The position numbers and the translations under genes were made by a program. The notes below the pieces were generated by a model. That model had not been told where the DNA came from. It saw only the letters and a list, made by a program, of their open reading frames with translations, and made no database searches. Source: Niveibacterium umoris (GTDB lineage: Bacteria > Pseudomonadota > Gammaproteobacteria > Burkholderiales > Rhodocyclaceae). Taken from it: a stretch of DNA of 64,000 nt. The stretch spans positions 558,001 to 622,000 of the forward strand of contig NZ_JACIET010000001.1 of assembly GCF_014197015.1 (NCBI RefSeq), written 5' to 3'. This document shows positions 3,681-58,601 of this stretch, one piece after another (position 1 is the stretch's first letter; every line of letters begins with the position of its first letter).

Positions 3681-3719
3681 TCGCGCAGGCATTCTCGTCG
3701 CGCCCCTGCTCTGAGCAGT

Positions 3720-3750
3720 TTGCAGTGGCCCGCGCTGCGGGCGATATACT
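3720..3750 (+). promoter_or_regulatory. Possible sigma-70 promoter for the permease pair
   Basis: TTGCAG (3720-3725) and TATACT (3745-3750) lie just ahead of the first permease ATG at 3769. The spacer is 19 bases, longer than the ideal 17, so this is a weak candidate. It sits in the only gap between glk and the permease genes. Confidence 0.35.
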
Positions 3751-3768
3751 GCTGCAGGGAGCTGCCGC

Positions 3769-4929: not shown

Positions 4930-6098
4930 TGTCCCGAGTCCCGCTTTCCTACTCCATCCGTAACCTTTGCACACGACGCCTTACCACCGTGCTGACGGCG
5001 GGCGGCATGGCGCTGGTGGTGTTCGTATTTGCTGCCGTGCGCATGCTCGACGCCGGGCTCAAGCAGACCTTGGTGGCCACCGGCACGCCTGAGAACGTGG
5101 TGGTGATCCGCAAGGGGGCCGAGACCGAAGTACAGAGCGGTGTCACACGCGACCAGGCCGGCCAGGTTGAGAGCCTGCCTCAAATCGCCCGCGGGCCCGG
5201 TGGTGCCGCAATGGTGTCGAAGGAAACGGTGGTGCTCTACGCCCTACCGAAAAAGGGCAGCGACAAGCCGACCAACGTGGTGATTCGGGGGGTTGGTGAA
5301 TTTGGCATGACATTGCGCTCGCAAGTACGTCTGAGTGCAGGGCGCATGTTTGCGCCTGGCAGTGCGGAGGTGATTGTCGGCGCCGGCGTGGCCGAGAAGT
5401 TTCGCGGTGCCGGGCTTGGTCAGTCGCTCAGATTCGGCGGTCGAGACTGGATCATCGTGGGCGTTTTTGATGCGGGCAAGACGGCGTTCGAATCAGAAAT
5501 ATGGGGTGACGCCGAGCAATTGATCCCGGCGTTCCGGCGTACTGCCTTTTCTTCGCTGTTGGTGCGCTTGAACAGTCGCGATGACTTCGCCGCCGTTCGC
5601 GACGCGATCGACAGCGATCCTCGCCTCGGTCTTGAGGCCAAGACCGAACAGCGCTTCTACGCCGACCAGTCAGAGGCGCTTTCGAAGTTCATCACTATTC
5701 TCGGCATGACGCTGTCGATCATCTTCTCGATCGGGGCCGTCATAGGCGCGATGATTACGATGTACTCAGCGGTGGCAACACGCACTGCCGAGATCGGCAC
5801 CCTTCGTGCACTTGGTTTCCGGCGTGCGAAGATCCTCACTGCGTTTCTCGCGGAGTCGCTTTTTCTGGCACTGCTCGGTGGCGTCATGGGTTTGGCTATG
5901 GCGTCCGGCATGCAGTGGGTATCGATCTCCACCACGAACTTCCAGACCTTCGCCGAATTGGCCTTCAGCTTCACGCTGACGCCGCGCATTGTCGTGGAGA
6001 CGCTCGTTTTTTCCCTGGTGATGGGCCTGGTCGGCGGCTTCCTGCCCGCAGTGCGGGCAGCGCGGCTCGACATCGTGACAGCACTGCGCGAGGGTTGA
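4929..6098 (+). CDS. ABC transporter permease, FtsX/MacB type (second of pair)
   Basis: The partner permease, 389 residues from the ATG that overlaps the previous stop. It has the same topology: an N-terminal membrane segment within residues 15-40, a periplasmic domain, then three membrane segments. It carries the family signature RTAEIGTLRALGF before the second segment. A longer reading frame begins 250 bases upstream inside the first permease gene, but that part is a shadow and the TGATG junction fixes the start. The gene converges on panC with a 19-base gap and no clear terminator. Confidence 0.87.
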   Translation: MSRVPLSYSIRNLCTRRLTTVLTAGGMALVVFVFAAVRMLDAGLKQTLVATGTPENVVVIRKGAETEVQSGVTRDQAGQVESLPQIARGPGGAAMVSKETVVLYALPKKGSDKPTNVVIRGVGEFGMTLRSQVRLSAGRMFAPGSAEVIVGAGVAEKFRGAGLGQSLRFGGRDWIIVGVFDAGKTAFESEIWGDAEQLIPAFRRTAFSSLLVRLNSRDDFAAVRDAIDSDPRLGLEAKTEQRFYADQSEALSKFITILGMTLSIIFSIGAVIGAMITMYSAVATRTAEIGTLRALGFRRAKILTAFLAESLFLALLGGVMGLAMASGMQWVSISTTNFQTFAELAFSFTLTPRIVVETLVFSLVMGLVGGFLPAVRAARLDIVTALREG

Positions 6099-6117
6099 GC
6101 CTGTCGCCGCGAGCGGG

Positions 6118-6942
6118 TCAGACTTCGAGATTGTCGATCAGACGGGTGTTGCCGAGTCGTGCGGCAGCAAGAATGACCAGCGGAATACCGGGTTCAGCGC
6201 CTTGCAGGTCGGATTGCCGGCGGATCGCGACGTAATCGGTCTTCCAGCCTGCCATGTCGAGGTGAGTCACGGCGGCGGCTTCCAGTGCCGCAAAGTCCGT
6301 CTGGCCCGCGCGCACCGCTTCGGCGATGGCGGCGAGCTGGCGGTGCAAGCGTGGCGCCTCGCTGCGCTCTTCGGGTGTGAGATAACCGTTGCGAGAAGAA
6401 AGCGCAAGCCCGTCTGGCGCGCGCACGGTGTCGCAACCCACAACGCGAATCGGCATGGCCAGTTCGCGGACCATGTTCCGGATCACCATCAGCTGCTGGT
6501 AGTCCTTCTTGCCGAAGAGTGCTACGTCCGGCTGGACGATATTGAACAGTTTGGTGACGACGGTCGCCACGCCCTGAAAGTGCCCCGGCCGGAAGGCGCC
6601 CTCCAGAATGCTGTCTTGTGCTGGCGCGGGCTGCACGAAGTACTGCTGCGGCGTCGGGTATAGCTCGCTCTCATCGGGCGCGAACAGGTGTGCAACGCCT
6701 GCTTCGCGCAGTTGGGCGCAATCCGCCTCGAAGGTTCGCGGGTACTTGTCGAAGTCCTCGTTCGGGCCGAACTGCAGGCGATTGACGAAGATGCTCGATA
6801 CCACCGTGTCGGCGTAGGCATGCGCCTGCTGCATCAGGCTCACATGGCCAGCGTGCAGGTTCCCCATGGTGGGTGCGAAGGCGATCGTGCCGGCGCTCTT
6901 GAGTGCCTTGCGCAGACTATCTACGGTGCGGTGGACGTGCAT
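6118..6942 (-). CDS. panC: Pantoate--beta-alanine ligase
   Basis: PanC joins pantoate and beta-alanine using ATP, the last step of pantothenate (coenzyme A precursor) synthesis in the cytoplasm. The protein is 274 residues, near the usual 280. The nucleotidyltransferase HIGH-like motif is seen as PTMGNLHAGH, followed by FGKKDYQQLMVI and the pantoate-loop region RAPDGLALSSRNGYL. The start is the ATG at 6942 because the alignment-typical beginning MHVHRTVDSLR starts there; the frame is open further upstream but without family sequence. panB and panD are not in the window. Confidence 0.95.
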   Translation of the reverse strand: MHVHRTVDSLRKALKSAGTIAFAPTMGNLHAGHVSLMQQAHAYADTVVSSIFVNRLQFGPNEDFDKYPRTFEADCAQLREAGVAHLFAPDESELYPTPQQYFVQPAPAQDSILEGAFRPGHFQGVATVVTKLFNIVQPDVALFGKKDYQQLMVIRNMVRELAMPIRVVGCDTVRAPDGLALSSRNGYLTPEERSEAPRLHRQLAAIAEAVRAGQTDFAALEAAAVTHLDMAGWKTDYVAIRRQSDLQGAEPGIPLVILAAARLGNTRLIDNLEV

Positions 6943-6998
6943 GAATGTGGTTCCGGAAACGAGGGCGGGAGGATGCCTCAGACTGCCCTGACAGGCAA

Positions 6999-7628
6999 TC
7001 AGCGGATTCCGCCGGCGGTCAGCAGCCCCAGGCCGACGAATAGCCCGCCAGTGGTGCGGTCGAGCCAGACCGTCACACGTTCGCGCCGGCGCAGCCAAGT
7101 GCCGATCGGGCCGGCGGCCATTGCGAAGGTGCCAAACACCAGGGCCGCCATCACGGCAAAGAGCGCACCGAACGCAGCGAGTTGGGCGGGTGTGCTCCAA
7201 CCACTGTGACGCACGAATTGCGGCAGGAAAGAAAGGAAGAACAGGCCAACCTTGGGATTGATGGCATTTGCGATCAGGCCGCGCATGAAATACGGGCGGA
7301 ATCCGCTACCCGCTTGCGGCGCTCGGTTGCGGGCGAGACTGGTGCCGCGCGATCGCAACGCCTGGATGCCGATCCAGATCAGGTACGCCGCGCCAGCCAT
7401 CTGCAGCACCTTGAAGGCGAGCGGCGACGCTGCGATCAGGGCGGAGACGCCAAGAACCGCGAGCAGGGTATGGTTGATGCAACCGGCGGCGCAGCCAAGG
7501 GCGAAACCGAGGGCTTCCGCACGGCCGCGCGAAATTCCCAAGGCGAGCACGCCCAGATTGTCCGGCCCGGGTGCGAGTGCCAGCAAGAATGCGGCACCGA
7601 GGAAAAGCGCGATCTGATCGAATGTCAT
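6999..7628 (-). CDS. LysE/RhtB-family amino acid exporter
   Basis: A 209-residue inner-membrane protein with about six hydrophobic segments. The N-terminal family motif APGPDNLGVLALGISRGR is followed by a Gly-rich second segment. Members of the LysE/RhtB family export amino acids such as threonine, homoserine or lysine. The start overlaps the stop of the upstream M20 amidohydrolase by four bases, so hydrolysis of an acylated amino acid and export of the product may be linked. The exact substrate cannot be read from the sequence. Confidence 0.9.
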   Translation of the reverse strand: MTFDQIALFLGAAFLLALAPGPDNLGVLALGISRGRAEALGFALGCAAGCINHTLLAVLGVSALIAASPLAFKVLQMAGAAYLIWIGIQALRSRGTSLARNRAPQAGSGFRPYFMRGLIANAINPKVGLFFLSFLPQFVRHSGWSTPAQLAAFGALFAVMAALVFGTFAMAAGPIGTWLRRRERVTVWLDRTTGGLFVGLGLLTAGGIR

Positions 7629-43234: not shown

Positions 43235-43282
43235 GCATGTAGGTGAAATTCCTACATGCTTGTGCGCGTTCGCGCCTACATG
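43235..43282. promoter_or_regulatory. Dyad plus extra half-site upstream of flhD
   Basis: GCATGTAGG-N7-CCTACATGC is a perfect 9-base inverted repeat (43235-43259). A further CCTACATG lies at 43275-43282, exactly 24 bases from the first. Such spaced repeats look like an operator for a dimeric regulator of flhDC. Confidence 0.55.
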
Positions 43283-43302
43283 ATTATCCGAACTCGCCCG
43301 AC

Positions 43303-43310
43303 TCAAGTTT
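43303..43310 (+). promoter_or_regulatory. Sigma-28-like -35 octamer upstream of flhD
   Basis: TCAAGTTT is the same octamer found in the better motA promoter. The matching -10 (GCCGATAA) is poor at 11-base spacing, so this is only a partial match. Confidence 0.25.
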
Positions 43311-43346
43311 CTTTAAGGCCGCGGTACTGTTGCTTCCACACGATAA

Positions 43347-43363
43347 GTTGCCAAAAAGGCAAC
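43347..43363 (+). promoter_or_regulatory. Hairpin in the flhD leader
   Basis: GTTGCC-AAAAA-GGCAAC ends eight bases before the GGAGGT ribosome binding site. Two GGA motifs (CGGACTGAGGAGG) follow, which could be CsrA sites; this is inferred. Confidence 0.4.
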
Positions 43364-43380
43364 GGACTGAGGAGGTCACA

Positions 43381-43698
43381 ATGCTTACCGCAAACCTGTC
43401 GGAAGAGATTCGCGAGCTGAATCTGTCTTACCTGATGCTGGCCCAGCGGCTGTTGCTGGAAGACCGGCAGTCAGGGATGTTCCGCCTCGGTCTGGGCGAA
43501 GACGCTGCCGATGTGATCGAAGCGCTCTCGCCGGCGCAGATTCTGCGCATGTCCTCCTCCGGCATGATGCTTTGCCAGGTCCGCTTCGACGAACGCCTGC
43601 TGCTCGAGCTGCTGTCCAATCATGAGCGTGAGCCGGCGGTGGCCAGCATTCACGCGGCGATCCTGGCGGCCAGCCGCCCGGTCGAAAATCTCGCCTGA
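43381..43698 (+). CDS. flhD: Flagellar transcriptional activator FlhD
   Basis: FlhD forms the FlhD4C2 complex with FlhC, the master activator of class 2 flagellar genes. The protein is 105 residues, normal for the family, with LSEEIRELNLSYLMLAQRLL and the helix-turn-helix-like C-terminal part. GAGGAGG precedes the ATG at 43381; the frame is open further upstream but reads through the regulatory region. flhC follows after 10 bases. Confidence 0.96.
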   Translation: MLTANLSEEIRELNLSYLMLAQRLLLEDRQSGMFRLGLGEDAADVIEALSPAQILRMSSSGMMLCQVRFDERLLLELLSNHEREPAVASIHAAILAASRPVENLA

Positions 43699-43708
43699 GG
43701 CCGCGACC

Positions 43709-44257
43709 ATGGCTACCCGCAGCGTGGTGCAGGACGCAATCGACACCCAGAGCGCGATCGAGATGATCCGCATGGGCGCCCGCATGCAGATGCTGGAAGC
43801 AGAGACCTCGCTCTCGCGCGAACGCCTGCTGCGGCTCTACAAGGAAGTGCGCGGCGAATCGCCGCCCAAGGGCATGCTGCCGTTCTCGACCGACTGGTTC
43901 ATGACCTGGCAACAGAACATCCATGCCTCGCTGTTCATGGGGTTCCACCGCTTCCTGCAGGAACATGGCGGCCTGCGCGGGCTCGACACCATCCTGTCGG
44001 CGTACCGTCTCTACATCAAGCACTGTGAAGAGAATGATCTGGAGCGCGTGCTCAGCATCACCCGCGCCTGGACCCTGATCCGCTTTTTCGACGCCCACAT
44101 GCTGCAGCTTGCCGGATGCACACGCTGTGGTGGCCGCTATGTTGCGCACGCCTACGACCCGACGCACGACTACGTCTGCGGGCTGTGCAACGTACCCTCG
44201 CGTGCGGGCAAGACCCGCCGCGCAGCCCCTCACGCCGAAGCCACAACAACAGTCTGA
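43709..44257 (+). CDS. flhC: Flagellar transcriptional activator FlhC
   Basis: The DNA-binding partner of FlhD, 182 residues. Zinc is held by four cysteines, CTRCGG and CGLCN, near the C-terminus. The N-terminal IEMIRMGARMQMLEAETSLS and central MLPFSTDWFMTWQQNIHAS are conserved in FlhC. The ATG at 43709 gives the usual length. A strong terminator follows, separating flhDC from motA. Confidence 0.96.
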   Translation: MATRSVVQDAIDTQSAIEMIRMGARMQMLEAETSLSRERLLRLYKEVRGESPPKGMLPFSTDWFMTWQQNIHASLFMGFHRFLQEHGGLRGLDTILSAYRLYIKHCEENDLERVLSITRAWTLIRFFDAHMLQLAGCTRCGGRYVAHAYDPTHDYVCGLCNVPSRAGKTRRAAPHAEATTTV

Positions 44258-44282
44258 CCTCCTCCTTGCTCGGCAAGGAGCT

Positions 44283-44317
44283 AAGCCGCCGTCACTTTCG
44301 TGTCGGCGGCTTTTTTT
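44283..44317 (+). terminator. Rho-independent terminator after flhC
   Basis: AAGCCGCC pairs with GGCGGCTT, followed by TTTTTTT. A smaller hairpin CTCCTTGC/GCAAGGAG precedes it. Confidence 0.9.
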
Positions 44318-44333
44318 GCACTGCAACGGGTGC

Positions 44334-44360
44334 TCAAGTTTGTCTTGGCGACGCCGTTAG
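44334..44360 (+). promoter_or_regulatory. Sigma-28 (FliA) promoter of motA
   Basis: TCAAGTTT-N11-GCCGTTAG matches the enteric consensus TAAAGTTT-N11-GCCGATAA at 13 of 16 positions with exact spacing. It lies right after the flhC terminator and 53 bases before motA. Confidence 0.75.
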
Positions 44361-44413
44361 AGCACTGGTCGGGCGTCGAGGCTCGCGCGTTTCTGTAGGA
44401 AGGGCAGAAAGCA

Positions 44414-45268
44414 ATGTTCCTGATCATCGGTTACGTGATCATCCTTGCCGCATCGGTCGGTACGTACGCCATTCACGGCAGTCTGGCCGCGCTGTGGGTG
44501 CCAACCGAGTACATCGCGATCTTCGGTCTGATGATCGGCGGTCTGGTCGCCGGCAACGGCATCAAGACCATCAAGTCGGTCGCCGGCGCGGTGCCAGGGG
44601 TGTTCAAGGGATCGCCCTACAACAAGGCGATGTACGTCGACCTGCTGGCAATGCTGTACGAGATTCTTGCCAAGGTGCGCAAGGAAGGCCTCATGTCGAT
44701 CGAAGGCGACATCGAGAACCCCGACGGCAGCGCGATCTTCGGCAAGTATCCGAGCGTCACCGTCGATCACCACGCGATGGAATTCCTTACCGATTACCTG
44801 CGCATGATGGTGGGGGGCAACCTCAACGCCTTCGAAATCGAAAACCTGATGGACATGGAAATCGAGACCCACCATCAGGAAGCCCACACCCCGGTGCACG
44901 CGGTCACCAAGATGGCCGACGGCGTGCCGGCCTTCGGTATCGTCGTCGCGGTGATGGGGGTGGTGAACGTGATGGGCTCGGTCGGCCAACCGCCGGCGGT
45001 GCTCGGCAAGATGATCGGTGGCGCGCTGGTCGGCACCTTCCTCGGCATCCTGCTTTCCTACGGTTTCGTCGGTCCGCTCGCGGGTCAGCTCGAACAGAAG
45101 ATGGAAGAGGGCGGCAAGATCTACCAGTGCATGAAGGTGGTGTTGCTCGCGAGCATGAACGGCTACGCGCCGCAGGTAGCGATCGAATTCGGTCGCAAGG
45201 TGCTGTTCTCGACCGACCGCCCGAGCTTCAAGGAGCTCGAAGAAGAAATCAAGAATCGGAAAAAGTAA
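44414..45268 (+). CDS. motA: Flagellar motor stator protein MotA
   Basis: MotA and MotB form the proton-driven stator. The protein is 284 residues with four membrane segments (about residues 2-20, 30-50, 168-190 and 202-222) and a large cytoplasmic loop that contacts FliG. The conserved prolines appear in VPAFGIVVAVMGVV and the fourth segment. AGGAAGGG precedes the ATG. It is the first gene after a sigma-28-like promoter, so it is a class 3 gene. Confidence 0.97.
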   Translation: MFLIIGYVIILAASVGTYAIHGSLAALWVPTEYIAIFGLMIGGLVAGNGIKTIKSVAGAVPGVFKGSPYNKAMYVDLLAMLYEILAKVRKEGLMSIEGDIENPDGSAIFGKYPSVTVDHHAMEFLTDYLRMMVGGNLNAFEIENLMDMEIETHHQEAHTPVHAVTKMADGVPAFGIVVAVMGVVNVMGSVGQPPAVLGKMIGGALVGTFLGILLSYGFVGPLAGQLEQKMEEGGKIYQCMKVVLLASMNGYAPQVAIEFGRKVLFSTDRPSFKELEEEIKNRKK

Positions 45269-45357
45269 GGCGCCGTCGGCGCCGCGCCCGCGTGGGCGGC
45301 TGCGGCGCCAAACGATGGTTCAAGACTTTCGACGCATAGTTCGCCCAAGACCGGTAC

Positions 45358-46323
45358 ATGGCCGAAGCAACCCAACAACCCATTGTCGTCAAGCGGATCA
45401 AGAAAGGCGGCGGCGGCGCGCACGGCGGTGCGTGGAAGATCGCCTATGCCGACTTCGTGACCGCGATGATGGCGTTCTTCCTGCTGATGTGGCTGCTCGG
45501 TTCGACCACCGAGGGCGACCTCAAGGGCATCTCGGACTACTTCCAGGCGCCACTGAAGATGTCGATGCAAGGGGGCCTCGGCACCGGGGATGCAACCTCG
45601 GTGATCCCCGGCGGCGGCAACGATCTGACCAAGTCCGTCGGCCAGGTCGCCAACGCCGACTACGACCAGCCCAAGAAGCGCATCAGGCAGCCGAAGATCA
45701 TGCCGGCCGACAACGAGTCGATCGAGCGTGCCCGCTTCGAGGAAATCAAGCAGAACCTCGAAGCGATGATCGAGGCTTCACCAGTGCTGCGGCCCTTCGC
45801 CAAGCAGTTACTGCTCGACATCACCTCCGAAGGTCTGCGCATCCAGATCGTCGACGAGAAGAACCGCCCGATGTTTGACAGCGGCGGCGCAACGCTCAAG
45901 CCCTACACGCGCGAAATCCTGCGCGCGATCGCGGTGACGCTGCACGAGGTGGGTAACCGTATCAGCGTCTCCGGCCATACCGACGCCACGCCGTATGCGG
46001 CAGGCGATCGCGGTATCGGCAACTGGGAACTCTCGGCCGACCGCGCCAACACCTGCCGGCGCGAACTGGTCTTTGGTGGTCTCGGCGAAGACCGCATCGC
46101 GCGGGTGGTCGGCCTCGCGGCGACGATTCCGCTGAAGGCGGAAGACCCTTACGACGCGATCAACCGCCGCATCAGCATCGTTGTGCTCAACAAGCGCGCA
46201 GAAGAGCAGATCGCCAATGCCGGCCGCACGCTTGAAGTCTCGGGTCAGGCACCGTCGGCCGACCAAGTCGGGCGGGAAGTGGGGGCGCAGCCGGAACGTG
46301 CGCCGCAGGAATCACAGCGTTGA
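45358..46323 (+). CDS. motB: Flagellar motor stator protein MotB
   Basis: MotB anchors the stator to peptidoglycan. The protein is 321 residues. A single N-terminal membrane helix carries the proton-binding Asp in KIAYADFVTAMMAFFLLMWL, and an OmpA-like domain (about residues 140-275) has VSGHTDATPYA and NWELSADRANTCRREL. A glycine-rich basic N-terminus (KRIKKGGGGAHGG) is typical. It follows motA after 89 bases and is probably co-transcribed. Confidence 0.96.
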   Translation: MAEATQQPIVVKRIKKGGGGAHGGAWKIAYADFVTAMMAFFLLMWLLGSTTEGDLKGISDYFQAPLKMSMQGGLGTGDATSVIPGGGNDLTKSVGQVANADYDQPKKRIRQPKIMPADNESIERARFEEIKQNLEAMIEASPVLRPFAKQLLLDITSEGLRIQIVDEKNRPMFDSGGATLKPYTREILRAIAVTLHEVGNRISVSGHTDATPYAAGDRGIGNWELSADRANTCRRELVFGGLGEDRIARVVGLAATIPLKAEDPYDAINRRISIVVLNKRAEEQIANAGRTLEVSGQAPSADQVGREVGAQPERAPQESQR

Positions 46324-46338
46324 GAGGATGAGGGAGCC

Positions 46339-47505
46339 ATGAAACTCTCAAGAACAGCCGCGCTCGGGCTAGGCATCGGATGGACCGTCGTGGCGACAGG
46401 CCTCGCCTGGGCTATGAGCTGGTCGGCACTCGTCGCCGGGGCTGCCGCAGCGCTTGGCTGGATCGCAGCCGTCTTCGGGCTCGCGGCCACCGTGGATGAT
46501 GCGAAGAAACCCGCAGTCACACCCCCACAGGTTCCGCCGGTATTGCCGGAAACACTTGGCGCGGCGAGCCAGGGTGCCGCCGATCAATTGCTGGCGATTC
46601 GCGACGAGATCAATCGGGTGCGCACCCTCTTGCAGGACGCGATCGCCAAGCTGAGCGCCAGCTTTACCGGCATGCATGCGCATACCCGCGCGCAGCAGGA
46701 GATCGCGCTGCAGATCACCTCACAGGGAGCGGGCGACGATTCACAGGATAGCTTCGACCGTTTCATCTCCAATACCTCCGACGTGATGCAGCGGATTGTC
46801 GATAGCGTGATCGAGAACAGCCGCATTGCGATGGAACTGGTGGAACTGACCGACACCATTTCAAAGCGCGCCAACGACGTCGAACAAATCCTCGGGGAGA
46901 TCGGCGCGATTGCAAAACAGACCAACCTGCTCGCCTTGAACGCCGCTATCGAGGCCGCACGCGCAGGCGAAGCGGGTCGCGGATTCGCGGTGGTGGCGGA
47001 CGAAGTGCGCGACCTGTCTGCGCGTACCGCCGCGTTCTCCAAACAGATCGGTGGCCTCATGCAGTCGATGCGCGACGGGGTGCGCCAGACCGAGAGCGCG
47101 ATTTCCCAAATGGCCTCGCAGGACATGACCTTCGCGCTCAACTCGAAGGGTCAGGTCGAAGAGGTGCTCGCCACCGTCGAGCGCATCAACCACCAGCGCC
47201 AGCAGGGCGTCGCGCAACTGTCCGAGCATTCGACGGCGATGGACAGTGAAGTTGGTCGCGCGATCACCGCAATGCAGTTCCAGGACATGGTGTCGCAGCT
47301 GGTCGGCCATGTGATCGAACGTGTCGACGGGCTCGACCGCCTCACCAAGGCACTCGCCGAACTGGCGGGCGCGACAGATCGGCCGGGTGACATCGATCGT
47401 GCAGCGACGGCGCTGCAAGCCCAGGTGTCCGCACTGCCGGCGATCAAGGATGTGCATTCCGTTAATCAGGCTCGCATCGCGGTCGGCGATGTCGAGCTGT
47501 TCTGA
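46339..47505 (+). CDS. Membrane-bound receptor-like protein with CheZ-like segment
   Basis: A 388-residue protein. It has two N-terminal membrane helices (about residues 6-25 and 28-50) with almost no periplasmic loop. A receptor-type signalling hairpin follows (tip near residues 195-225, [20 protein letters not shown]), then a second helical segment (about residues 265-345) with [20 protein letters not shown]. The FQDxxxQ pattern (Asp316, Gln320) equals the catalytic Asp-Gln motif of the CheY phosphatase CheZ. The chain ends with a flexible linker and GDVELF, recalling the CheZ C-terminal CheY-docking peptide. No cheZ gene is present in this cluster. The receptor part is certain, the phosphatase role is an inference. 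Confidence 0.85.
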
Positions 47506-47525: not shown

Positions 47526-47891
47526 ATGGCGAAGACGGTTCTCACCGTGGATGACTCGGCCTCGATCCGGCAGATGGTCTCTTTCACGCTCAAGAGCGCG
47601 GGCTACGACGTACTCGAAGCGGTCGACGGCATGGACGGGCTCGACAAAGCGAAAAGCCGCCAGGTCGACCTGGTGCTCACCGACCAGAATATGCCGCGCA
47701 TGGACGGGCTCAGCCTGATCAAGCAACTGCGCGGGCAGCCGCAGTACCGCACGGTACCGATCCTGATGCTCACCACCGAATCCTCCGACACGATGAAGCA
47801 GCAGGGCCGCGCCGCGGGGGCGACCGGCTGGCTGGTCAAACCCTTCGACCCGCAGAAACTGATCGAAGTGGTCAAGAAAGTGATCGGCTAA
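47526..47891 (+). CDS. cheY: Chemotaxis response regulator CheY
   Basis: A single receiver domain of 121 residues that, when phosphorylated by CheA, binds the flagellar switch. The acidic pair is in TVDDSASIRQM, the phospho-acceptor Asp in VLTDQNMPRMDG, the Thr/Ser in LMLTTES, and the Lys in WLVKPFDP. It sits between the receptor-like protein and cheA. It has no output domain. Confidence 0.96.
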   Translation: MAKTVLTVDDSASIRQMVSFTLKSAGYDVLEAVDGMDGLDKAKSRQVDLVLTDQNMPRMDGLSLIKQLRGQPQYRTVPILMLTTESSDTMKQQGRAAGATGWLVKPFDPQKLIEVVKKVIG

Positions 47892-47932: not shown

Positions 47933-50218
47933 ATGTCCTTTGACATGAGCCAGTTCCACGAGGTGTTCTTCGAGGAATCTCGTGAGCACCTGGAGAGCAT
48001 GGAATCCTTGCTTCTGGCGGTGGATGTTCACGCGCCGGAAAGCAGCGACATGAATGCGATATTCCGCGCGGCCCATTCGATCAAGGGTTCGGCGGCAACC
48101 TTCGGTTTTACCGACGTGGCCGAACTTACCCACGTCATGGAAACGCTGCTCGATCTGGTGCGCAACAACGCCATCGCGCTGACCGAAGAGATGGTCGATG
48201 CCTGCCTGGCCGCCGGGGATGTGCTGAGGGTGTTGCTCGACGCGCACCAGGGGCATGGCGAACCCGACCACGTCGCCGCCGAGGCGATCCGCCAGCGCCT
48301 CGCGGTGCTGGCCGACGGTGCGCCACGTAGCGGGGAAGCCACCGCCAAGGGGGGTGTCGGCAGTCGCAAGCAGACCTATCAGCTCGGGTTCGCGGTAACA
48401 GCTGGCGACCAGCGCGGCGAGCAGGGCATCGAGAACCTGCTCAACGAGTTACGTGAATTGGGCGAGGTGCTGGAAACGCAGCCCCCCGCAGACGGCGCCA
48501 GCACCTGGCAGGTGAAACTGGCCAGTGACGTCGACGCCGACACGCTGCGCTCGGTACTGGAATTTGTCGCCGACAGCGCGTCGGTCACCGTCGAACAACT
48601 CGGCGGGCAGGGCAAGACTGCCGATGCAGCGCCCGACGCCTACGGATTTTTCGACGCGGCACCCGGTGCGCCAGCGCAGGAAGAAACCGCCTACGGTTTC
48701 TTCGAACCGCTCCCTGCCGCCGCGCCCGCCGCCGCAGTCGAGGAAGCCTACGGCTTCTTCGAACCCCTGCCAGGCGAAGCTGCCGCAGCCCCGGCGGTGA
48801 AATCGGCCGGTAGTGATGACGCTTACGGTTTCTTCGAACCCATTTCGACGCCGACCAGCAGCGCCGATGCGGCCGACGGTTCCTATGGATTCTTCGAGCC
48901 GATCCGGCAGCCGGCGCCCGAGGTGCTTGCCGCGGCCGCGCCGCTGCCTGCGACCCAACCCGCGCCGGGCAAGCCTGCCGCCGCAGCGCCGGCCGCGGTG
49001 CGCGAGGCGGGCGCCGCCAAGCCTGCCGCACGTGGCGACACCGGCTCGATCCGGGTCAATATCGAACGGGTCGATCAGATGATCAACCTCGTCGGGGAAC
49101 TGGTGATCACCCAGGCGATGATCAGCCAGGCCGCCGGCTCGCTCGACCCGGTGCTTTACGAACGCCTGCACAGCGGCATTGCGCTGCTCGAACGCAACAC
49201 GCGCGACCTGCAGGAATCGGTGATGTCGATCCGCATGTTGCCGATCTCGACCGTCTTCAACCGATTCCCGCGCGTGGTGCGCGACCTATCCGGCAAGCTC
49301 GGCAAGAAGGTCGAGCTGGTTACCAGCGGCGAGCACACCGAACTCGACAAGGGTTTGGTCGAACTGATCTCCGATCCGCTCACCCACCTGATCCGCAACA
49401 GCCTCGACCACGGCATCGAATCGCCCGAGCGGCGGCGCGAATCGGGCAAGAGTGAAACCGGTCGCATCAATCTGCGTGCCTACCACCAGAGCGGCAACAT
49501 CGTGATCGAAGTGGCCGACGACGGCGCCGGTCTCAATCGCAACCGCATCCTCGAAAAAGCACGCGAGCGGGGCTTGCCGGCCTCCGATGCGATGTCCGAT
49601 CAGGACGTATGGCAACTGATCTTCGAACCGGGGTTTTCTACCGCGGATCAGGTCACCGATGTGTCCGGCCGCGGTGTCGGGATGGACGTGGTCAAGCGCA
49701 ACATCGGTTCGCTGGGCGGTCGCATCGAGCTCGATTCGATGCTGGGCGTCGGCACCCGGGTGACGGTGCGGCTTCCGTTGACGCTGGCGATTCTCGACGG
49801 CATGTCTGTCGGCATTGCGGGCGAGACCTACATCATTCCGCTCGACTATGTGGTCGAGTCGCTGCAGCCGACACCGGCCATGCTCAAGGCCGTGTCGGGT
49901 GTCGAACGCTTGCTCGACGTGCGCGGCGAATACCTGCCGATCGTCGATCTGCACGAAGCCTTCGAGACCCCCGGCGAGCGCGGTGCCTACGACGGCGGCA
50001 TCATGGTGATCATCGAATCGGACGGCAACAAGGCTGCTGCCTTCGTCGACGAACTGATCGGTCAGCACCAGGTCGTCATCAAGAGTCTGGAAGCGAACTA
50101 CCGCAGGGTGCCGGGCATTTCCGGCGCCACCATCATGGGCGACGGCCACGTCGCGCTGATCCTTGATCCCCCGCAGCTGGTAAGCATGGCGCGCCGCGCC
50201 AGCCAGAACGCTGCCTGA
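47933..50218 (+). CDS. cheA: Chemotaxis histidine kinase CheA with YGFF repeats
   Basis: CheA phosphorylates CheY and CheB. The protein is 761 residues: the P1 phosphotransfer domain with His48 (AAHSIKGSAATFGF), a second folded region (about 145-225), a long Ala/Pro-rich linker, P3 dimerisation (from about residue 365, NIERVDQMINLVGELVI), the P4 ATPase domain (LIRNSLDHGIESPERRRESG, DDGAGLNRNRI, GRGVGMDVVK), and the P5 CheW-like domain. The linker holds five copies of a YGFF motif, at Tyr237, 254, 273, 298 and 318, four of them followed by EP. A typical P2 domain is not obvious. Confidence 0.96.
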   Translation: MSFDMSQFHEVFFEESREHLESMESLLLAVDVHAPESSDMNAIFRAAHSIKGSAATFGFTDVAELTHVMETLLDLVRNNAIALTEEMVDACLAAGDVLRVLLDAHQGHGEPDHVAAEAIRQRLAVLADGAPRSGEATAKGGVGSRKQTYQLGFAVTAGDQRGEQGIENLLNELRELGEVLETQPPADGASTWQVKLASDVDADTLRSVLEFVADSASVTVEQLGGQGKTADAAPDAYGFFDAAPGAPAQEETAYGFFEPLPAAAPAAAVEEAYGFFEPLPGEAAAAPAVKSAGSDDAYGFFEPISTPTSSADAADGSYGFFEPIRQPAPEVLAAAAPLPATQPAPGKPAAAAPAAVREAGAAKPAARGDTGSIRVNIERVDQMINLVGELVITQAMISQAAGSLDPVLYERLHSGIALLERNTRDLQESVMSIRMLPISTVFNRFPRVVRDLSGKLGKKVELVTSGEHTELDKGLVELISDPLTHLIRNSLDHGIESPERRRESGKSETGRINLRAYHQSGNIVIEVADDGAGLNRNRILEKARERGLPASDAMSDQDVWQLIFEPGFSTADQVTDVSGRGVGMDVVKRNIGSLGGRIELDSMLGVGTRVTVRLPLTLAILDGMSVGIAGETYIIPLDYVVESLQPTPAMLKAVSGVERLLDVRGEYLPIVDLHEAFETPGERGAYDGGIMVIIESDGNKAAAFVDELIGQHQVVIKSLEANYRRVPGISGATIMGDGHVALILDPPQLVSMARRASQNAA

Positions 50219-50236
50219 AAGCCAGTGGAGACAAGC

Positions 50237-50737
50237 ATGGTCGAAGCCAACATGCAACTGACGGTCGCCCAGGAGGGCAGGGTCATCGCCGGCGAGTTCC
50301 TGACCTTCACGCTGGGCGGCGAGGAATACGCGATCGACATCCTCAAGGTGCAGGAGATCCGCGGCTACGACGCGGTAACCCGCATCGCTGGCGCGCCGGA
50401 GTTCATCAAGGGTGTCATAAACCTGCGCGGCATCATCGTGCCGATCGTCGATCTGCGGATCAAGTTCAAGGCCGGCAGCGCGGAGTTCACGCCTTTCACC
50501 GTGGTGATCATCCTGAACGTCGGCACGCGTGTCGTCGGCGTCGTGGTCGACGGCGTGTCGGACGTGCTGACCCTGGCGCCGGAGCAGATCCGGCCGGCAC
50601 CGGAGTTCACTTCGGCCATCCGTACCGAATACATCCTCGGGCTTGCCTCGGTGGCCGAGCGGATGCTGATCCTGCTCGACATCGAACGGCTGATGAGCGC
50701 CAGCGAAATGGCGCTGGTCGACGAAGCCATCCTCTGA
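50237..50737 (+). CDS. cheW: Chemotaxis coupling protein CheW
   Basis: CheW links receptors to CheA. The protein is 166 residues, one CheW domain with [39 protein letters not shown] and a DLR motif. The ATG at 50237 follows GTGGAGA; a GTG at 50225 is possible. It lies between cheA and the large receptor gene. Confidence 0.95.
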
Positions 50738-50779
50738 ATCCGTCCATCCCACGTCCCAGATTTCGCCCGGAGAAGCGTG

Positions 50780-53539
50780 ATGCAAGCTTTCCTCAAACCC
50801 GCGCTGTCGTTGATGAACCGCATGGCGGTCGCACGCAAGTTTGCGTTGATCGGTGTGATCGTCCTGTTGGCGCTCGGCTTCATGGCCTGGCATTTGAACA
50901 AGCGCATTGCCACCGATCTTGAGTTTTCCGAGATGGAATCGCTGACGGCGCATTATTACTTTCCGCTGCGGCAGATGATGGAGTTCGTGCAGACCCATCG
51001 CGGCCAGGCCCGGCAGGTACTGATGGGCAACGAGGCCGCCAAGGCGAAGCTCAAGGAAGCAGCCGACAAGGTCGAGGCCGCGATCAAGGCCGAGGACGAA
51101 GTGATTGCGCATGAAGGGCACCGCTTCGGGCTCGACGAACCTTGGGGCAAGATCAAGCAGGAGTGGGCCAACGTCCAGCAGCGCGCCGTGAGTGTGAGCG
51201 CCGACGAGTCGGTCAAGCTCCATTCCGATCTGATCGGGCATATCGTCGACCTGATCGGAACTGTCGCCGACAACACGAACGCTACCCTCGACCCCGAGGT
51301 GACCACTTACTATCTGATGACCATCTTCGCGCAGGACGGGCCGGGCGTGATCGAGGCGGTGGGCCGCATGCGCGCGCGTACCGTTTCGGCGATCCTCGCT
51401 AAGCAGGTCAGCGTCGCAGATCGGGTCGACATCGCGGTTCAGCAGAGCGCGATTTCGCGCGGCATGCGCGACCTCGATCTGGCCCTGCAGAAGGCGCTGG
51501 CGGCCGACGCGAGCGGGGTGATCAAGGAGAAGGTTGCACCGAAGGCTGAAGCGTTCAACAGCAAGCTCAAGGCGGCGCTCGAACTATCGGCGCGAATTCT
51601 CGCCGCGGACAAGGTCGATGGCACGCCGGATGAAGTGTGGAGCGTCACTTCTGCCGCCGTGCAGTCGGGCAATGCGCTGCTGGATGCGGCAGCGGACACC
51701 TTCGACCAATCGATCGACAGTCGGGTCGAGCGTCTGACGCACGAACGGCAAGCGATTTTCGCTGTGTTTGCAGCGGCGGTGGCGGTGGCGCTTTACCTGT
51801 TCCTCGGCTTCCGTGCCGGCATGCTCGCTGCGATCGGCAGCATCCAGAGCGGTGCCCGGCGCATCTCGCAGGGTGACCTTTCTCTGGATGTGCATGTCCC
51901 GTCGCAAGACGAATTCGGTGCGATCGCGGTGACGCTCAACACCATGCGAACGCAGCTCAAGGAGCGCACCGAGCGCGAACAAGCGGCGGCAGCCGAGAAC
52001 CTGCGCATCCGCAATGCGCTGGACAAGACCTCGACCAATGTGATGTTGGCCGACAACGAGGGGAAGATCCTCTACTGCAATGAGTCGGTCACCGTCATGT
52101 TGTCGGGCGTGGAAGCTGAGTTGCGCAAGGCGCTGCCGCAGTTCCGTGCGAACGACATCGTGGGACGCAACTTCGACGAGTTCCACCGCAATCCCTCGCA
52201 CCAGCGCAACCTGCTGGGCGGCTTGCGCGGCAAGCATGTCAGCAACATCAAGGTCGGGCCGCTGAGTTTCCGTTTGACGGCCAACCCGATTACCGATGTG
52301 GGCGGGCAGCGCTTGGGTACGGTGATTGAATGGCTCGACCGAACGGCCGAGGTCAAGGCGGAGGAGGAGCTTGCCGGCTTGCTCAAGGCGGCACTCGATG
52401 GCGACTTTGAAAAACGGCTGTCAGTGGCCGACAAGGAAGGCTTCTTCCGGCAACTGGCCGAAGCAATGAATCAACTGCTGGGTGTGGTCTCGGGTGGCCT
52501 CGAAGACATTGCCCGGGTGCTCAACGCCATCGCGTCGGGCGACCTGACGGTGCGTATCACCTCTGACTATCAGGGCCTGTTCGGGCGTCTGAAGGATGAC
52601 ACCAATTCCACCGTCGATCGCCTGAACGATGTGCTGGGTCGCATCCGCGAGGCCAGTGACGCGGTGAACACGGCGGCGCAAGAGATCGCGGCGGGCAATT
52701 CCGACCTCTCCGGCCGCACCGAAGAGCAGGCTTCGAGTCTGGAAGAGACTGCGTCGAGCATGGAAGAACTCAACACCACGGTGAAGCAGAACGCGGACAA
52801 CGCCGCGCAGGCCAACAAGCTTGCGATGCAGTCCAACGAGGTGGTGCAGCAAGGCGGGGCGCAGGTGCGCAAGGTCGTGACGACCATGGATGCGATCCAG
52901 AGCAGCGCCACCAAGATCGCGGACATCATCGGGGTGATCGATTCGATTGCCTTCCAGACCAACATCCTGGCGCTGAACGCCGCGGTCGAGGCTGCGCGAG
53001 CGGGCGAGCAGGGTCGTGGCTTTGCGGTGGTGGCTTCCGAGGTGCGCAACCTCGCGCAACGCAGCGCGCAGGCCGCCAAGGAGATCAAGGGCCTGATTGC
53101 CGATAGCGTTGAAAAGGTTGGCGAGGGCGCACGCGAAGTGCGCGACGCCGGCGCCACCATCAACACGATGGTCAGCAGTTTCGAAGAACTGGCGCGCCTT
53201 GTGACGGACATCTCGCAGGCGAGCCGCGAACAGGCTTCGGGTATCGAGCAGGTGTCGGCCGCGGTTGGCCAGATGGACGAAGTGACACAGCAGAACGCTG
53301 CGCTGGTCGAACAAGCGGCCGCGGCGGCCGAAAGTCTGGAAGAGCAGGCGCGCGCGCTGGCCGGTGCAGTCGCTGCGTTCCGGCTCGATGGCCAGGCGGC
53401 AGGGGCCTCGCCGATGGTCGAAGCGGTGCGCTCTCCGGTGCGTTCAGCCACCGCCGCTCGTATGGCGTCGGTGGCGCCGGCGCCGGCCAAGCCCCGCAAG
53501 AAACCAGCACCCAGCGAATCGGACTGGCAGGAATTCTGA
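50780..53539 (+). CDS. Methyl-accepting chemotaxis protein, PAS-containing, with CheR-docking tail
   Basis: A receptor of 919 residues. It has membrane helices at about residues 21-38 and 325-345 flanking a large all-helical periplasmic sensor (about 40-320). HAMP follows, then a PAS-like domain (about 410-525, including [16 protein letters not shown]), a second HAMP-like part, and the signalling domain (about 620-860) with [20 protein letters not shown]. Methylation-site context is seen in [18 protein letters not shown]. It ends in DWQEF, which matches the NWETF-type pentapeptide that binds CheR and CheB. GGAGAAG precedes the ATG at 50780. Confidence 0.94.
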
Positions 53540-55846: not shown

Positions 55847-55879
55847 GGGCATTTGCATGAGCGCAGGAAAGCATCACTG

Positions 55880-56893
55880 ATGAGTGACAAACCGGATTCA
55901 CGAGTTCCGCCCCGCCCGCCGTTGACGGCGCCGCGCACGACGCCACTTGGCGCGACGCCCCGACCCGGCCTCGCGGCCACACGGCCACTCACGCCGACCG
56001 GCACTGTTCCACCGGGTGCCGTGCAGCGCGCGAAGATTGTCGAGACGCTTGGCAAGATCGACGTATCGGGGCGCGAGTTTGCCTTCACCTCGGCCGACTT
56101 CGAGCGGGTGCGTGGTCTGATCTACAAGCACGCCGGCATCGCGCTGTCGCCGATCAAGCAGGACATGGTGTACAGCCGCTTGGCGCGACGTTTGCGGGCC
56201 AAGAGCATGCGCAGCTTCACTGAATATCTCGATGCGCTCGAACGCAACAACGATACGAAGGAATGGGAGGAATTCGTCAACGCGCTGACGACCAATCTCA
56301 CCTCGTTCTTCCGCGAGGCCCACCACTTCGACACGCTGGCCAAGCAGATGCGGGCGATGCCGCCCAAGCAGGTCTTCAAGATCTGGTGCTGCGCAGCGTC
56401 GACGGGCGAAGAGCCATACTCACTTGCGATTACTGCTTGCGAGGCCTACAACTCGCTGACGCCACCGGTGCAGATCATTGCGACCGATCTCGATACCAAT
56501 GTCCTCAAGCATGGCGAACAGGGCATGTACGGCATGGACCGGGTCGAGCGCCTTGAACGGGAGCGCTTGCAGAAGTTCTTCCTGAAAGGCACCGGCGAGC
56601 AGGCCGGCAAGGTGCGCGTGCGGCCGGAACTCCAGCGCCTGCTGAGTTTTCGTCGCCTGAATCTGCTCGAACCGAACTGGCCTGTTCAGGGGCCGTTCGA
56701 CGCGATTTTCTGCCGCAACGTGATGATCTATTTCGACAAGCCGACGCAGTACAAGATCCTGCATCGCTTCGTGCCCTTGCTGAAACCGGAAGGCTTCATG
56801 TACGCCGGCCATTCGGAAAACTTCATGCATGCGGCCGACCTCTTCCGCTCCCTGGGGAGAACGGTGTATGCCCGCGCTGACCAACGGAGCTGA
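55880..56893 (+). CDS. cheR: Chemotaxis protein methyltransferase CheR
   Basis: CheR methylates receptor glutamates using SAM. The protein is 337 residues, with a Pro/Thr-rich N-terminal extension (about residues 4-50) that is not usual, followed by the N-terminal domain (FTSADFERVRGLIYKHAGIA) and the SAM domain (WCCAASTGEEPYSLAI, FDAIFCRNVMIYF). The ATG at 55880 follows a weak ribosome binding site. The cheD start lies 26 bases inside its end. Confidence 0.95.
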   Translation: MSDKPDSRVPPRPPLTAPRTTPLGATPRPGLAATRPLTPTGTVPPGAVQRAKIVETLGKIDVSGREFAFTSADFERVRGLIYKHAGIALSPIKQDMVYSRLARRLRAKSMRSFTEYLDALERNNDTKEWEEFVNALTTNLTSFFREAHHFDTLAKQMRAMPPKQVFKIWCCAASTGEEPYSLAITACEAYNSLTPPVQIIATDLDTNVLKHGEQGMYGMDRVERLERERLQKFFLKGTGEQAGKVRVRPELQRLLSFRRLNLLEPNWPVQGPFDAIFCRNVMIYFDKPTQYKILHRFVPLLKPEGFMYAGHSENFMHAADLFRSLGRTVYARADQRS

Positions 56894-57500
56894 CTTTGAT
56901 CCGCTCGATGCGCACCTTGCGGACAACACCTACTTTGACCGCAACTTCGAGTGCGACGCGGTCAAGGTGCTGCCGGGGGAGTACTACGCGACGACTCGCG
57001 ACATGGCAATCGTCACCGTGCTTGGTTCGTGCGTGGCAGCCTGCATCCGCGATCGCGACAAGCGTATCGGCGGGCTCAACCACTTCATGCTGCCCGATGG
57101 CGGCGAGCGCGGTGTCGTGTCGGAATCCGCACGCTACGGGGCGTTTGCAATGGAAGTGCTGATCAACCGGCTGCTCGGCATGGGCGCGCGCCGTACCAGC
57201 CTGGAAGCCAAGGTGTTTGGCGGCGGGCGGGTGATGGCGGCGCTGACCGGATCCAACGTGGGCGACCGAAACGCGGCCTTCGTGCTGGACTATCTCAAGC
57301 TCGAGCGCATTCCTGTCGTCGCGCAGGATCTGCTGGATGTGTATCCGCGCAAGGTCTATTTCTTTCCGGTCAGTGGCCGGGTGATGGTGAAGAAGCTGGT
57401 GGATCTGCGTAACGAAACCCTCATCGACCGTGAGCGCGCGTACCGCGAGCGCCTCACGCATGCGCCGCGTCACAGCGGCGATGTCGAGCTGTTCGACTAA
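56868..57500 (+). CDS. cheD: Chemoreceptor glutamine deamidase CheD
   Basis: CheD deamidates receptor glutamines to glutamates and in some bacteria helps CheC. The protein is 210 residues. The catalytic Cys-His pair is in VTVLGSCVAACIRD and GGLNHFMLP, followed by KVFGGGRVM. The C-terminus is SGDVELFD, nearly the same as the end of the receptor-like protein at 46339-47505. GGGGAGAA precedes the ATG at 56868, inside the end of cheR. Confidence 0.95.
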   Translation: MPALTNGADFDPLDAHLADNTYFDRNFECDAVKVLPGEYYATTRDMAIVTVLGSCVAACIRDRDKRIGGLNHFMLPDGGERGVVSESARYGAFAMEVLINRLLGMGARRTSLEAKVFGGGRVMAALTGSNVGDRNAAFVLDYLKLERIPVVAQDLLDVYPRKVYFFPVSGRVMVKKLVDLRNETLIDRERAYRERLTHAPRHSGDVELFD

Positions 57501-57512
57501 GGCGAGACGATC

Positions 57513-58601
57513 ATGGCCATTCGCGTACTCGTGGTGGACGATTCGGCGGTGATGCGATCGGTGTTGTCCGAGATCATCAACCAGGCTGACGACATGGAAG
57601 TGGTGGGCACGGCGACCGATCCGATCGTCGCGCGCGAAATGATCAAACAACTCAATCCCGATGTCCTCACGCTGGACATCGAGATGCCCAAGATGGACGG
57701 GCTTGAGTTCCTCGACAAACTGATGCGACTGCGTCCGACGCCGGTGATCATGATTTCGACCCTGACTGAACGCGGCTCCGATGTGACTTTCCGTGCGCTT
57801 GAACTGGGTGCGGTCGACTTCGTCACCAAACCCAAGCTCAATTCTGCGCAAGGCATCAAGGTTTATTCGGATGAGATCTGCGACAAGATCCGCGCAGCGC
57901 ATCTGGCGCGCTTGCGCTCACCAAGCAAATTCGCGGCCGCCGCCCCGACACCTGGCGCGGCGACGGGTGCCGGCAGCGCAGTCAGCGGGCCGCCCATCGA
58001 CGCCGCGGTGCTGCGTGACCGCCTGGTGCTGATTGGCGCATCCACAGGCGGCACCGAAGCCATCAAGGAGGTGCTGACGCGATTCCCGGAGCAGATGCCC
58101 GGCATCCTGATCGTGCAGCACATGCCCGAAATGTTCACCGGCTCGTTCGCCAAGCGGCTGGACGGCCTCTGCAAGATCCATGTCAAGGAAGCGGAGGACG
58201 GCGAAAAGGTGCTGCCGGGTACCGCGTATCTGGCCCCGGGGCATTCGCATCTGCTGGTGAAGAAAAGCGGCGGGCTCTACGTCTGCGAATTGTCGAAGGC
58301 GGATCCGGTGAATCGCCACCGGCCGTCGGTCGATGTGCTGTTCCATTCGGCTGCGCGCCATGTCGGCAGTAGCGGCGTCGGCGTGATCCTTACCGGCATG
58401 GGCAAGGACGGCGCACAAGGCATGCTGGCGATGAAGCAGGCCGGCTGCTGGAACATCGGCCAGGATCAGGAAAGCTGCGTCGTCTATGGCATGCCACGCG
58501 AGGCGGCACAGATTGGCGCAGTGGATGAGGTAGCCCCCTTGAACGAGGTCGCGCAGCGGGTGGTGGCGCGACTCAAGCAGCCCGCGCGGCGCGGCGCATG
58601 A
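57513..58601 (+). CDS. cheB: Chemotaxis response regulator methylesterase CheB
   Basis: CheB removes methyl groups from receptors when phosphorylated. The protein is 362 residues: a receiver domain ([14 protein letters not shown]; phospho-acceptor in [12 protein letters not shown]; Lys in FVTKPKL), an Ala/Pro linker, and the methylesterase domain with Ser ([12 protein letters not shown]), His ([13 protein letters not shown]) and Asp ([10 protein letters not shown]). It starts 12 bases after cheD. A STAS gene follows. Confidence 0.97.

Follow-up and report, generated by a model that had tools for sequence, protein, structure and literature searches.

Why should a chemoreceptor encoded directly before a cheY gene carry, behind its signalling hairpin, a motif that resembles the active site of the phosphatase CheZ? 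The question is raised by P0001, a gene in the 64,000-nucleotide stretch of the Niveibacterium umoris genome analysed here (the window; the genome, G000, comprises 4.80 Mb in 17 contigs). An initial annotation had proposed that P0001 is a receptor fused to the "missing CheZ". The features referred to in this work are the following:

46339..47505, + strand: P0001, putative McpA-like chemoreceptor with an embedded Z module (388 aa ORF, PF00015, ortholog comparison)
46360..46488, + strand: N-terminal membrane anchor, residues about 8-50, one or two segments (predicted helices, hydrophobic sequence; topology predicted)
46570..46734, + strand: N-terminal base helix of the proposed Z module, residues 78-132 (profile matches to hairpin-less proteins, conservation)
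46828..47118, + strand: receptor signalling hairpin, about residues 164-260, tip 204-215 (PF00015)
47191..47370, + strand: C-terminal base helix of the proposed Z module, residues 285-344 (profile search, predicted structure)
47269..47298, + strand: CheZ-like motif AxxFQDxxxQ, residues 311-320, with D316 and Q320 (QFxDxxxQ in 25/25 aligned orthologs)
47461..47502, + strand: C-terminal tail, 14 residues ending GDVELF, putative docking peptide (25/25 aligned orthologs)
47526..47891, + strand: cheY, F7 type, with N59, E89, D92 and K95 (PF00072, comparison with CheZ-linked CheYs)
47933..50218, + strand: cheA (Pfam Hpt, H-kinase_dim, HATPase_c, CheW)
50225..50737, + strand: cheW (PF01584)
43243..46323, + strand: flhD, flhC, motA and motB, upstream of P0001 (Pfam)
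55853..58601, + strand: cheR, cheD and cheB (ORFs; cheR and cheB named from sequence)
56829-57500, + strand: cheD (PF03975 match at G000:C1:615087-615395), ending SGDVELFD

The gene order is flhD-flhC-motA-motB-P0001-cheY-cheA-cheW-mcp-mcp-cheR-cheD-cheB (both mcp genes, cheR and cheB are named from sequence). P0001 was correctly placed directly before cheY, only 20 bases separating the two genes, and the flagellar and chemotaxis cluster of the window is indeed devoid of cheZ, none being found among the ORF and Pfam calls. The MCPsignal domain (PF00015) covers residues 164-313 with an E-value of 4.8e-29, and the hairpin sits between the two Z helices, the N-terminal one of which has conserved residues at A101, L105, F109 and Q119. 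Reading of the ORF bears out an FQDxxxQ motif after the hairpin (F314, D316 and Q320), followed by the flexible linker and the short acidic-hydrophobic tail, GDVELF, that had been described. Helices are predicted at residues 5-25, 29-50, 135-344 and, as a short one, 351-370, then comes a disordered end; the AlphaFold2 model is a long helical hairpin (pLDDT 80, pTM 0.45), with pLDDT below 50 for residues 382-388. As a separate observation, the CheA of the window (47933-50218) has five near-copies of YGFFEP/YGFFDA in a Pro-Ala linker between P2 and the dimerisation domain, and this repeat is possibly a docking peptide.

Conservation of the motif and the tail

A search of 61 genomes with the whole protein gave matches in 56, many of them only through ordinary receptors. 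The 25 best relatives (L003-L027, E 5e-39 or better) were taken as orthologs, i.e. they were found by the whole protein and the motif was not used. Three items were set aside before counting: L014, in which a TAA interrupts the frame and motif and tail are still seen in the pieces, the paralog L032 of the same genome, whose QFEDRVHQ is of a second class, and one own-genome match without a locus. In the resulting alignment of 25 rows, with the window included and L014 left out, QFxDxxxQ as well as the tail are kept in 25 of 25 sequences. Beyond the core of the hairpin, invariant residues are, among others, Q313, F314, D316, Q320, R328, V375, G383, L387 and F388, and the A of AxxFQ varies among the orthologs. 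The ordinary receptors of the same genome (30 frames from 28 loci, 29 of the frames with a recognisable hairpin and one overrunning its locus) contain neither QFxDxxxQ nor the conserved tail in any frame, and F.D...Q is found in the last 250 residues of none of the 30. Judged from the sequences, the P0001 motif exceeds chance; F[QEGAHY]D...Q arises in 0.5% of shuffles of P0001 residues 240-345.

The neighbourhood of the gene is conserved as well. The next chemotaxis gene is cheY in 23 of 26 ortholog loci (L011, L024 and L027 are the exceptions), and motB precedes the ortholog in 17 of the 26. In a motif-seeded scan of 80 named loci, in which only tail and neighbour are independent, a loose form of the tail is present in all 80, and a cheY lies at most 600 bases downstream in 71. 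Gamma-proteobacterial relatives keep QFxDxxxQ and the tail, the residue after F becoming A, G or E. The P0001-type receptor is also present in named records, many of them Rhodocyclales; among plasmid records three Vibrio places match P0001, without annotation, and none match the stand-alone protein discussed below.

A few further occurrences may be mentioned here. Receptor frames of about 330-460 aa in the same phylum (L093-L101, L106, L108-L112, L114-L117 and L119) have a QFEDMVTQ-like motif and a DEG[DE][IV]ELF-like end, and in two stretches around receptors of this type (L130, L134) the receptor is followed by a STAS-like protein and by a receiver protein about 565 aa long. Contigs L244 (CAJCHO010000089.1), L203 and L218, labelled Mycobacteriaceae, Nitrospirae and Geobacteraceae, carry McpA-cheY genes of beta-proteobacterial appearance, and are possibly mislabelled or mixed bins.

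Hairpin-less relatives and the distribution of the tail

When 398 genomes of the phylum were searched with a profile of the C-terminal part of P0001, 107 gave matches, and the same profile also finds proteins of about 150-210 aa that have the motif and the tail without the hairpin. Such hairpin-less proteins occupy the slot before cheY-cheA in L123, L127, L133, L223, L241 (Methylobacillus), L246 (Methylotenera), L247 and L249 (Massilia). When 14 short proteins were compared, the C-part profile matched 9 at E 2e-20 or better, while the receptor hairpin profile gave nothing better than E 0.013. The N-terminal base helix was compared by profile search, alignments A4 and A5, in which this helix is misplaced, being left unused there: the profile of residues 78-132 matches 8 of the 14 with E-values of 1.1e-9 to 2.9e-15 and two more at about 2e-4, the remainder being weak. 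In 28 of 61 measurable receptors the conserved F of the first helix lies at a distance of 205 residues from that of the motif, and the midpoint falls on the hairpin tip in 28 of the 61; in 6 of 9 measurable short proteins the distance is 51 residues, and in the other three it is 31, 38 and 56. The difference between the two common values, 154 residues, equals 22 heptads, which argues that a hairpin was gained or lost with the phase of the coiled coil kept. Taken at the level of sequence, the unit tied to cheY is thus best described as a separable "Z module" (base helices, motif and tail) into which the receptor hairpin appears to have been inserted, or from which it was lost. In one case (L248) the membrane segment is apparently kept and the hairpin is gone.

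Six short proteins were compared with Pfam and NCBIfam and none has a family over the cut-off, one of them, L133, touching PF04344 at E 0.016. The AlphaFold2 model of the Massilia stand-alone protein (pLDDT 85, pTM 0.68) is a helical hairpin with a third helix and a disordered tail; none of its 246 Foldseek matches reaches E 0.001, and no CheZ is among the 50 of them that were listed. N. umoris itself encodes a stand-alone Z-like protein (L120:4088-4660) with QFYDKLTQ and the end NEIELF, and the gene directly after it codes for a PAS-type histidine kinase (L120:4664-6175); short proteins similar to the Z-like one, with QF[YF]D[RK]xxQ, are found in L129, L250, L293 and L314.

The tail is less restricted than the motif. 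In the own genome the codon pattern [DE][IMV][DE][LF]F-stop is found twice, in P0001 and in L120:4088-4660, and its reversed form nowhere; over 13 genomes the pattern occurs at 15 places versus 6 for the reversed control. Of these 15 places, motif-bearing McpA-like receptors account for five, receptors without the motif for four, stand-alone Z proteins for two (own genome and G040) and CheDs for two (G007, G037); the last two are a frame of 13 residues and a non-stop. The motif-less receptors belong to genus-mates (L251, L260, L261 and L255, in G001, G004 and G006) and end in TEVELF, AEVELF or GEVELF, three of the four being alike enough for orthologs; a receptor of the own genome with a similar end region (L048) stops in SAELW. 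The strict tail is kept in 24 of 30 relatives' CheDs, and clusters of Vibrio and other gamma-proteobacteria have it on both CheD and the McpA-like receptor. Two CheX-family proteins (L322 and L328, PF13690 over the cut-off), found only through their place directly before a CheY, end GELEFF and GELELF. From these sequences the tail is seen to mark chemotaxis proteins, and not Z modules alone. A search of the open literature for the tail letters as literal text returned, among the matches listed, only what resemble chance word matches.

Which protein would such a tail bind? Its presence on two unrelated families of putative or known CheY phosphatases beside cheY argues for CheY as the partner, while its presence on receptors without the motif argues for a broader partner, e.g. 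an adaptation enzyme. The latter leads to an explanation that has no place for CheY dephosphorylation: the tail could be a variant tether to which CheR, CheB or some other adaptation protein binds, and the motif a matter of structural packing. N-W-E-T-F is a known receptor tether, with which D-V-E-L-F can be aligned, and another receptor of the window (50777-53539) ends DWQEF. The four genus-mate receptors ending in EVELF raise the standing of this explanation, and they lower that of the phosphatase and wider-family readings given below. Nevertheless we consider a tether quite unlikely, as the hairpin-less Z proteins, which offer no receptor hairpin for methylation, still keep both tail and motif, and as P. 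aeruginosa McpA, whose residue at position 2 is valine, failed to bind any of four CheRs in work cited by the consulted part of PMC7184735. The joint loss of cheD and the F7 cheY in enterics (PMC7184735) fits CheY as the partner of the tail. A term search of PMC7698151, made with regard to CheB binding, gave no mention of McpA.

CheZ, the partner CheY and the proposed function

The simplest form of the idea, namely that P0001 replaces a missing CheZ, is very improbable. It is true that the own cluster contains no cheZ, and that in one genome with receptor and F7 cheY, the latter on another contig, no cheZ was found (G012, 98% complete). However, a canonical cheZ (PF04344, E 1.3e-75) lies beside a cheY of its own at C1:811373-811972, about 200 kb from P0001, and 25 of the 26 ortholog-bearing genomes have one, a count that also weighs against the phosphatase reading given below. 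A canonical cheZ elsewhere in the genome was the first refuting condition named by the initial annotation; for this genome it refutes the replacement, but it does not refute a dedicated second phosphatase. The own genome further contains a CheX (C1:713425), and a search of it for CheC gave no match.

Nor do the profile comparisons support a fusion with CheZ. P0001 scores 10.6 bits against PF04344 (E 0.53), the family cut-off being 30.7 bits, and in the profile-profile comparison with CheZ that the initial annotation had called for, hhalign gave probabilities of 6% and 2%; at 6% the register falls on FQDxxxQ. Against 30 CheZs the base-helix profile gave nothing and the C-part profile was weak, its lowest E-value in this small set being 3e-5. 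Sequence searches of solved structures returned 19 and 1 matches, no chemotaxis protein being among them. Filing P0001 as a CheZ was rejected, since the profiles demonstrate no homology. Some unrelated observations on CheZ-like sequences can be added: at G013:C5:137470, G024:C1:2292864, G034:C29:36484 and G022:C8:239778 there are frames some 190-220 aa long whose match to the CheZ profile is confined to about positions 106-140, and the ORF 3677-4222 (minus strand) of L125 ends EVDGLLKDLMA, reminiscent of the CheZ tail.

Even though the profiles give no evidence of kinship to CheZ, the functional part of the earlier claim, that a receptor performs CheZ-like chemistry on the adjoining CheY, gains support, because motif and tail are invariant in the orthologs, a hairpin-less module sits in the same operon slot, and published F7 clusters contain a cheY and no cheZ (as described in the consulted sections of PMC7184735). 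We compared the CheYs of 75 module loci, that of the window included, with 27 rows of CheYs encoded beside CheZ, the own one being counted twice. Both groups have D12, D13, D57, N59, E89 and K109. A difference is found at position 92, which is D in 68, E in 5 and A in 1 of 74 F7 CheYs, but K in 26 and R in 1 of the 27 CheZ-linked rows. It is K92 of CheY that is contacted by D143 of CheZ. Without K92 an exact copy of this contact is impossible in the F7 CheYs and the geometry would have to differ, a point against a phosphatase; we speculate that an equivalent contact is made to K95, which is invariant in the F7 CheYs of the module loci.

Our preferred reading is that P0001 serves the F7 CheY as an auxiliary phosphatase of the CheZ-like kind, embedded in a receptor, and we put its probability at roughly 0.45. 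It draws on the motif, the tail and the conservation of both, on the separable module and its place beside cheY, and on the like tails of CheD and of CheX-type phosphatases. At the base of P0001 two helices would pair below the hairpin and present the A-x-x-F-Q-D-x-x-x-Q site, a linker and the Phi-acid-L-F tail. The GDVELF tail would capture the F7 CheY encoded next door, upon which D316 and Q320 would position a water molecule for in-line attack on the phospho-aspartate of CheY, as D143 and Q147 do in CheZ. The decay of CheY-P would thereby be coupled to the receptor array, the site being presumably exposed and under the control of the receptor state.

The same module and tail could, on the other hand, simply keep the F7 CheY, or some other protein of the F7 system, at the array for a phosphate sink or a local output, D and Q being only part of a binding surface. 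Docking of this kind would suit the F7 CheY1 of Comamonas, which autodephosphorylates fast and has been called a possible phosphate sink (consulted sections of PMC6391922), a finding that counts against a phosphatase, and CheY4 of V. cholerae, likewise proposed as a sink (PMC3774744, in part); CheD, which is not a phosphatase, has the same tail. We nevertheless find docking without catalysis unlikely, as it would not account for an invariant D and Q at CheZ spacing with a CheZ-like FQ before them, nor for the like tail on two CheX phosphatases; moreover F314, M317 and L321 may face outwards beside this D and Q, to judge from column hydrophobicity.

The phosphatase reading can be widened, tentatively, to a widespread and so far unrecognised family of CheZ-like phosphatase modules, stand-alone or with a receptor hairpin of 22 heptads inserted, that would serve the CheYs of systems without CheZ (F7 and F9-like) and use the C-terminal Phi-acid-L/F-F tail, common to CheD, CheX phosphatases and some receptors, as a docking code. 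For the F9-like part the candidates are receptors encoded immediately before cheY, whose motif reads QFQDRxSQ and whose tail is xxFF. When regions were drawn from the class by way of their CheYs, 51 of 114 genomes gave a match; of the best 40 regions outside the own genome 14 have the module and 26 do not, some being truncated at the end of the contig or region, and this result counts against the phosphatase reading. In six of the 14 (L312, L313, L315, L317, L318 and L319) a QFQDR[VTM]SQ receptor with an xxFF end lies immediately before cheY or overlaps it; the label "F9-like" for these six was assigned after the fact. When gene order was used as the criterion (cheA 290-370 bases after cheY) the QFQDR[VTM]SQ receptor was present in 5 of 5 (L313, L315, L317, L318 and L319). 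We regard this wider family as somewhat unlikely. CheZ itself could have descended from such a receptor-derived hairpin. The own genome also has a second, F9-like cluster (L139, G000:C2:1335000-1343000) with a receptor at 3103-4344 that has QFEDRVHQ and the end GITFF, cheY at 4365-4730 and cheA at 5072-7264.

Comparison with McpA-like receptors, CheX and CheZ

It is instructive to compare P0001 with the McpA-like receptors of F7 systems, i.e. McpA/CttP/PA0180 of P. aeruginosa, VCA1088/Mlp44 of V. cholerae and McpAso of S. oneidensis. Like P0001 these are membrane-anchored. They belong to an F7 cluster, as P0001 probably does, where their genes lie beside cheY or after cheB, and in their conserved C-terminus the residue at tether position 2 is non-aromatic (consulted parts of PMC7184735 and PMC7534058). 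The end of P0001, DVELF, likewise lacks x-[HFYW]-x2-[HFYW], and the A1 profile finds a receptor upstream of cheY-cheA (L266-L268) and, in a Vibrio, one after cheR-cheD-cheB (L265). P0001 thus fits a beta-proteobacterial form of this group, a likeness to P. aeruginosa McpA that is drawn from published descriptions and the A1 profile. Compared by gene order, the cluster of the window matches the published stage 4 F7 order (PMC7184735) except for P0001 and the distant cheY-cheZ pair. According to Ortega et al. 2020 (PMC7184735, as far as consulted) mcpA was lost prior to the beta-proteobacterial stages; in contrast, the window and its relatives keep the receptor, and Massilia, Methylobacillus and others keep a hairpin-less form.

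The consulted sections of the same work call the conserved C-terminus of P. aeruginosa McpA "important yet unclear" in its role, and those of PMC7534058 state that experimental reports on VCA1088 are lacking and that the F9 receptor VC1394 shares its topology. The McpA of Shewanella clusters together with the F6 array; swimming was unaffected when this receptor was deleted and increased when it was overproduced, and overproduction of three other receptors had the same effect (PMC9855816, in part). These results count against a phosphatase. Searches of the open-access literature listed no paper whose title or abstract start describes a CheZ-like motif in McpA-like receptors, and the motif, the hairpin-less relatives and the tail common to CheD and CheX are absent from the consulted parts of the F7 and McpA literature. 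Published work leaves open the role of McpA-like receptors, the reason for the conservation of their C-terminus and the way F7 CheY-P is switched off. The finding here is more than a motif: an McpA-like receptor has as its foundation a separable module that is linked to cheY, and D316, Q320 and GDVELF provide a handle for testing these questions directly in harmless bacteria. If the proposed function is true, the F7 CheY gains an off-switch, and the receptor, by carrying a CheY-P phosphatase itself, would unite the start and the end of the signal in one molecule of the array.

Two families of CheY phosphatases are of interest for comparison. The CheX proteins of L322 and L328, which have a receiver-like N-terminus, resemble P0001 in the tail and in the position of the gene directly before a CheY. 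The underlying folds are of unrelated families and so are the active-site motifs, which is ExxN in CheX. CheZ and P0001 have in common the AxxFQDxxxQ element (AxxFQ adjoins DxxxQ in CheZ according to the consulted part of PMC7750401), a predicted helical hairpin, a flexible linker and a hydrophobic C-terminal peptide. The likening of the P0001 tail to the CheY-docking peptide of CheZ was right in that a short conserved tail is present, but the tail is not the LLxxLGF peptide and is common with CheD instead: CheZ ends in QxxVDxLLxxLGF, P0001 in GDVELF. P0001 further differs from CheZ in that a receptor hairpin stands between its helices, and in that its adjoining CheY has no K92.
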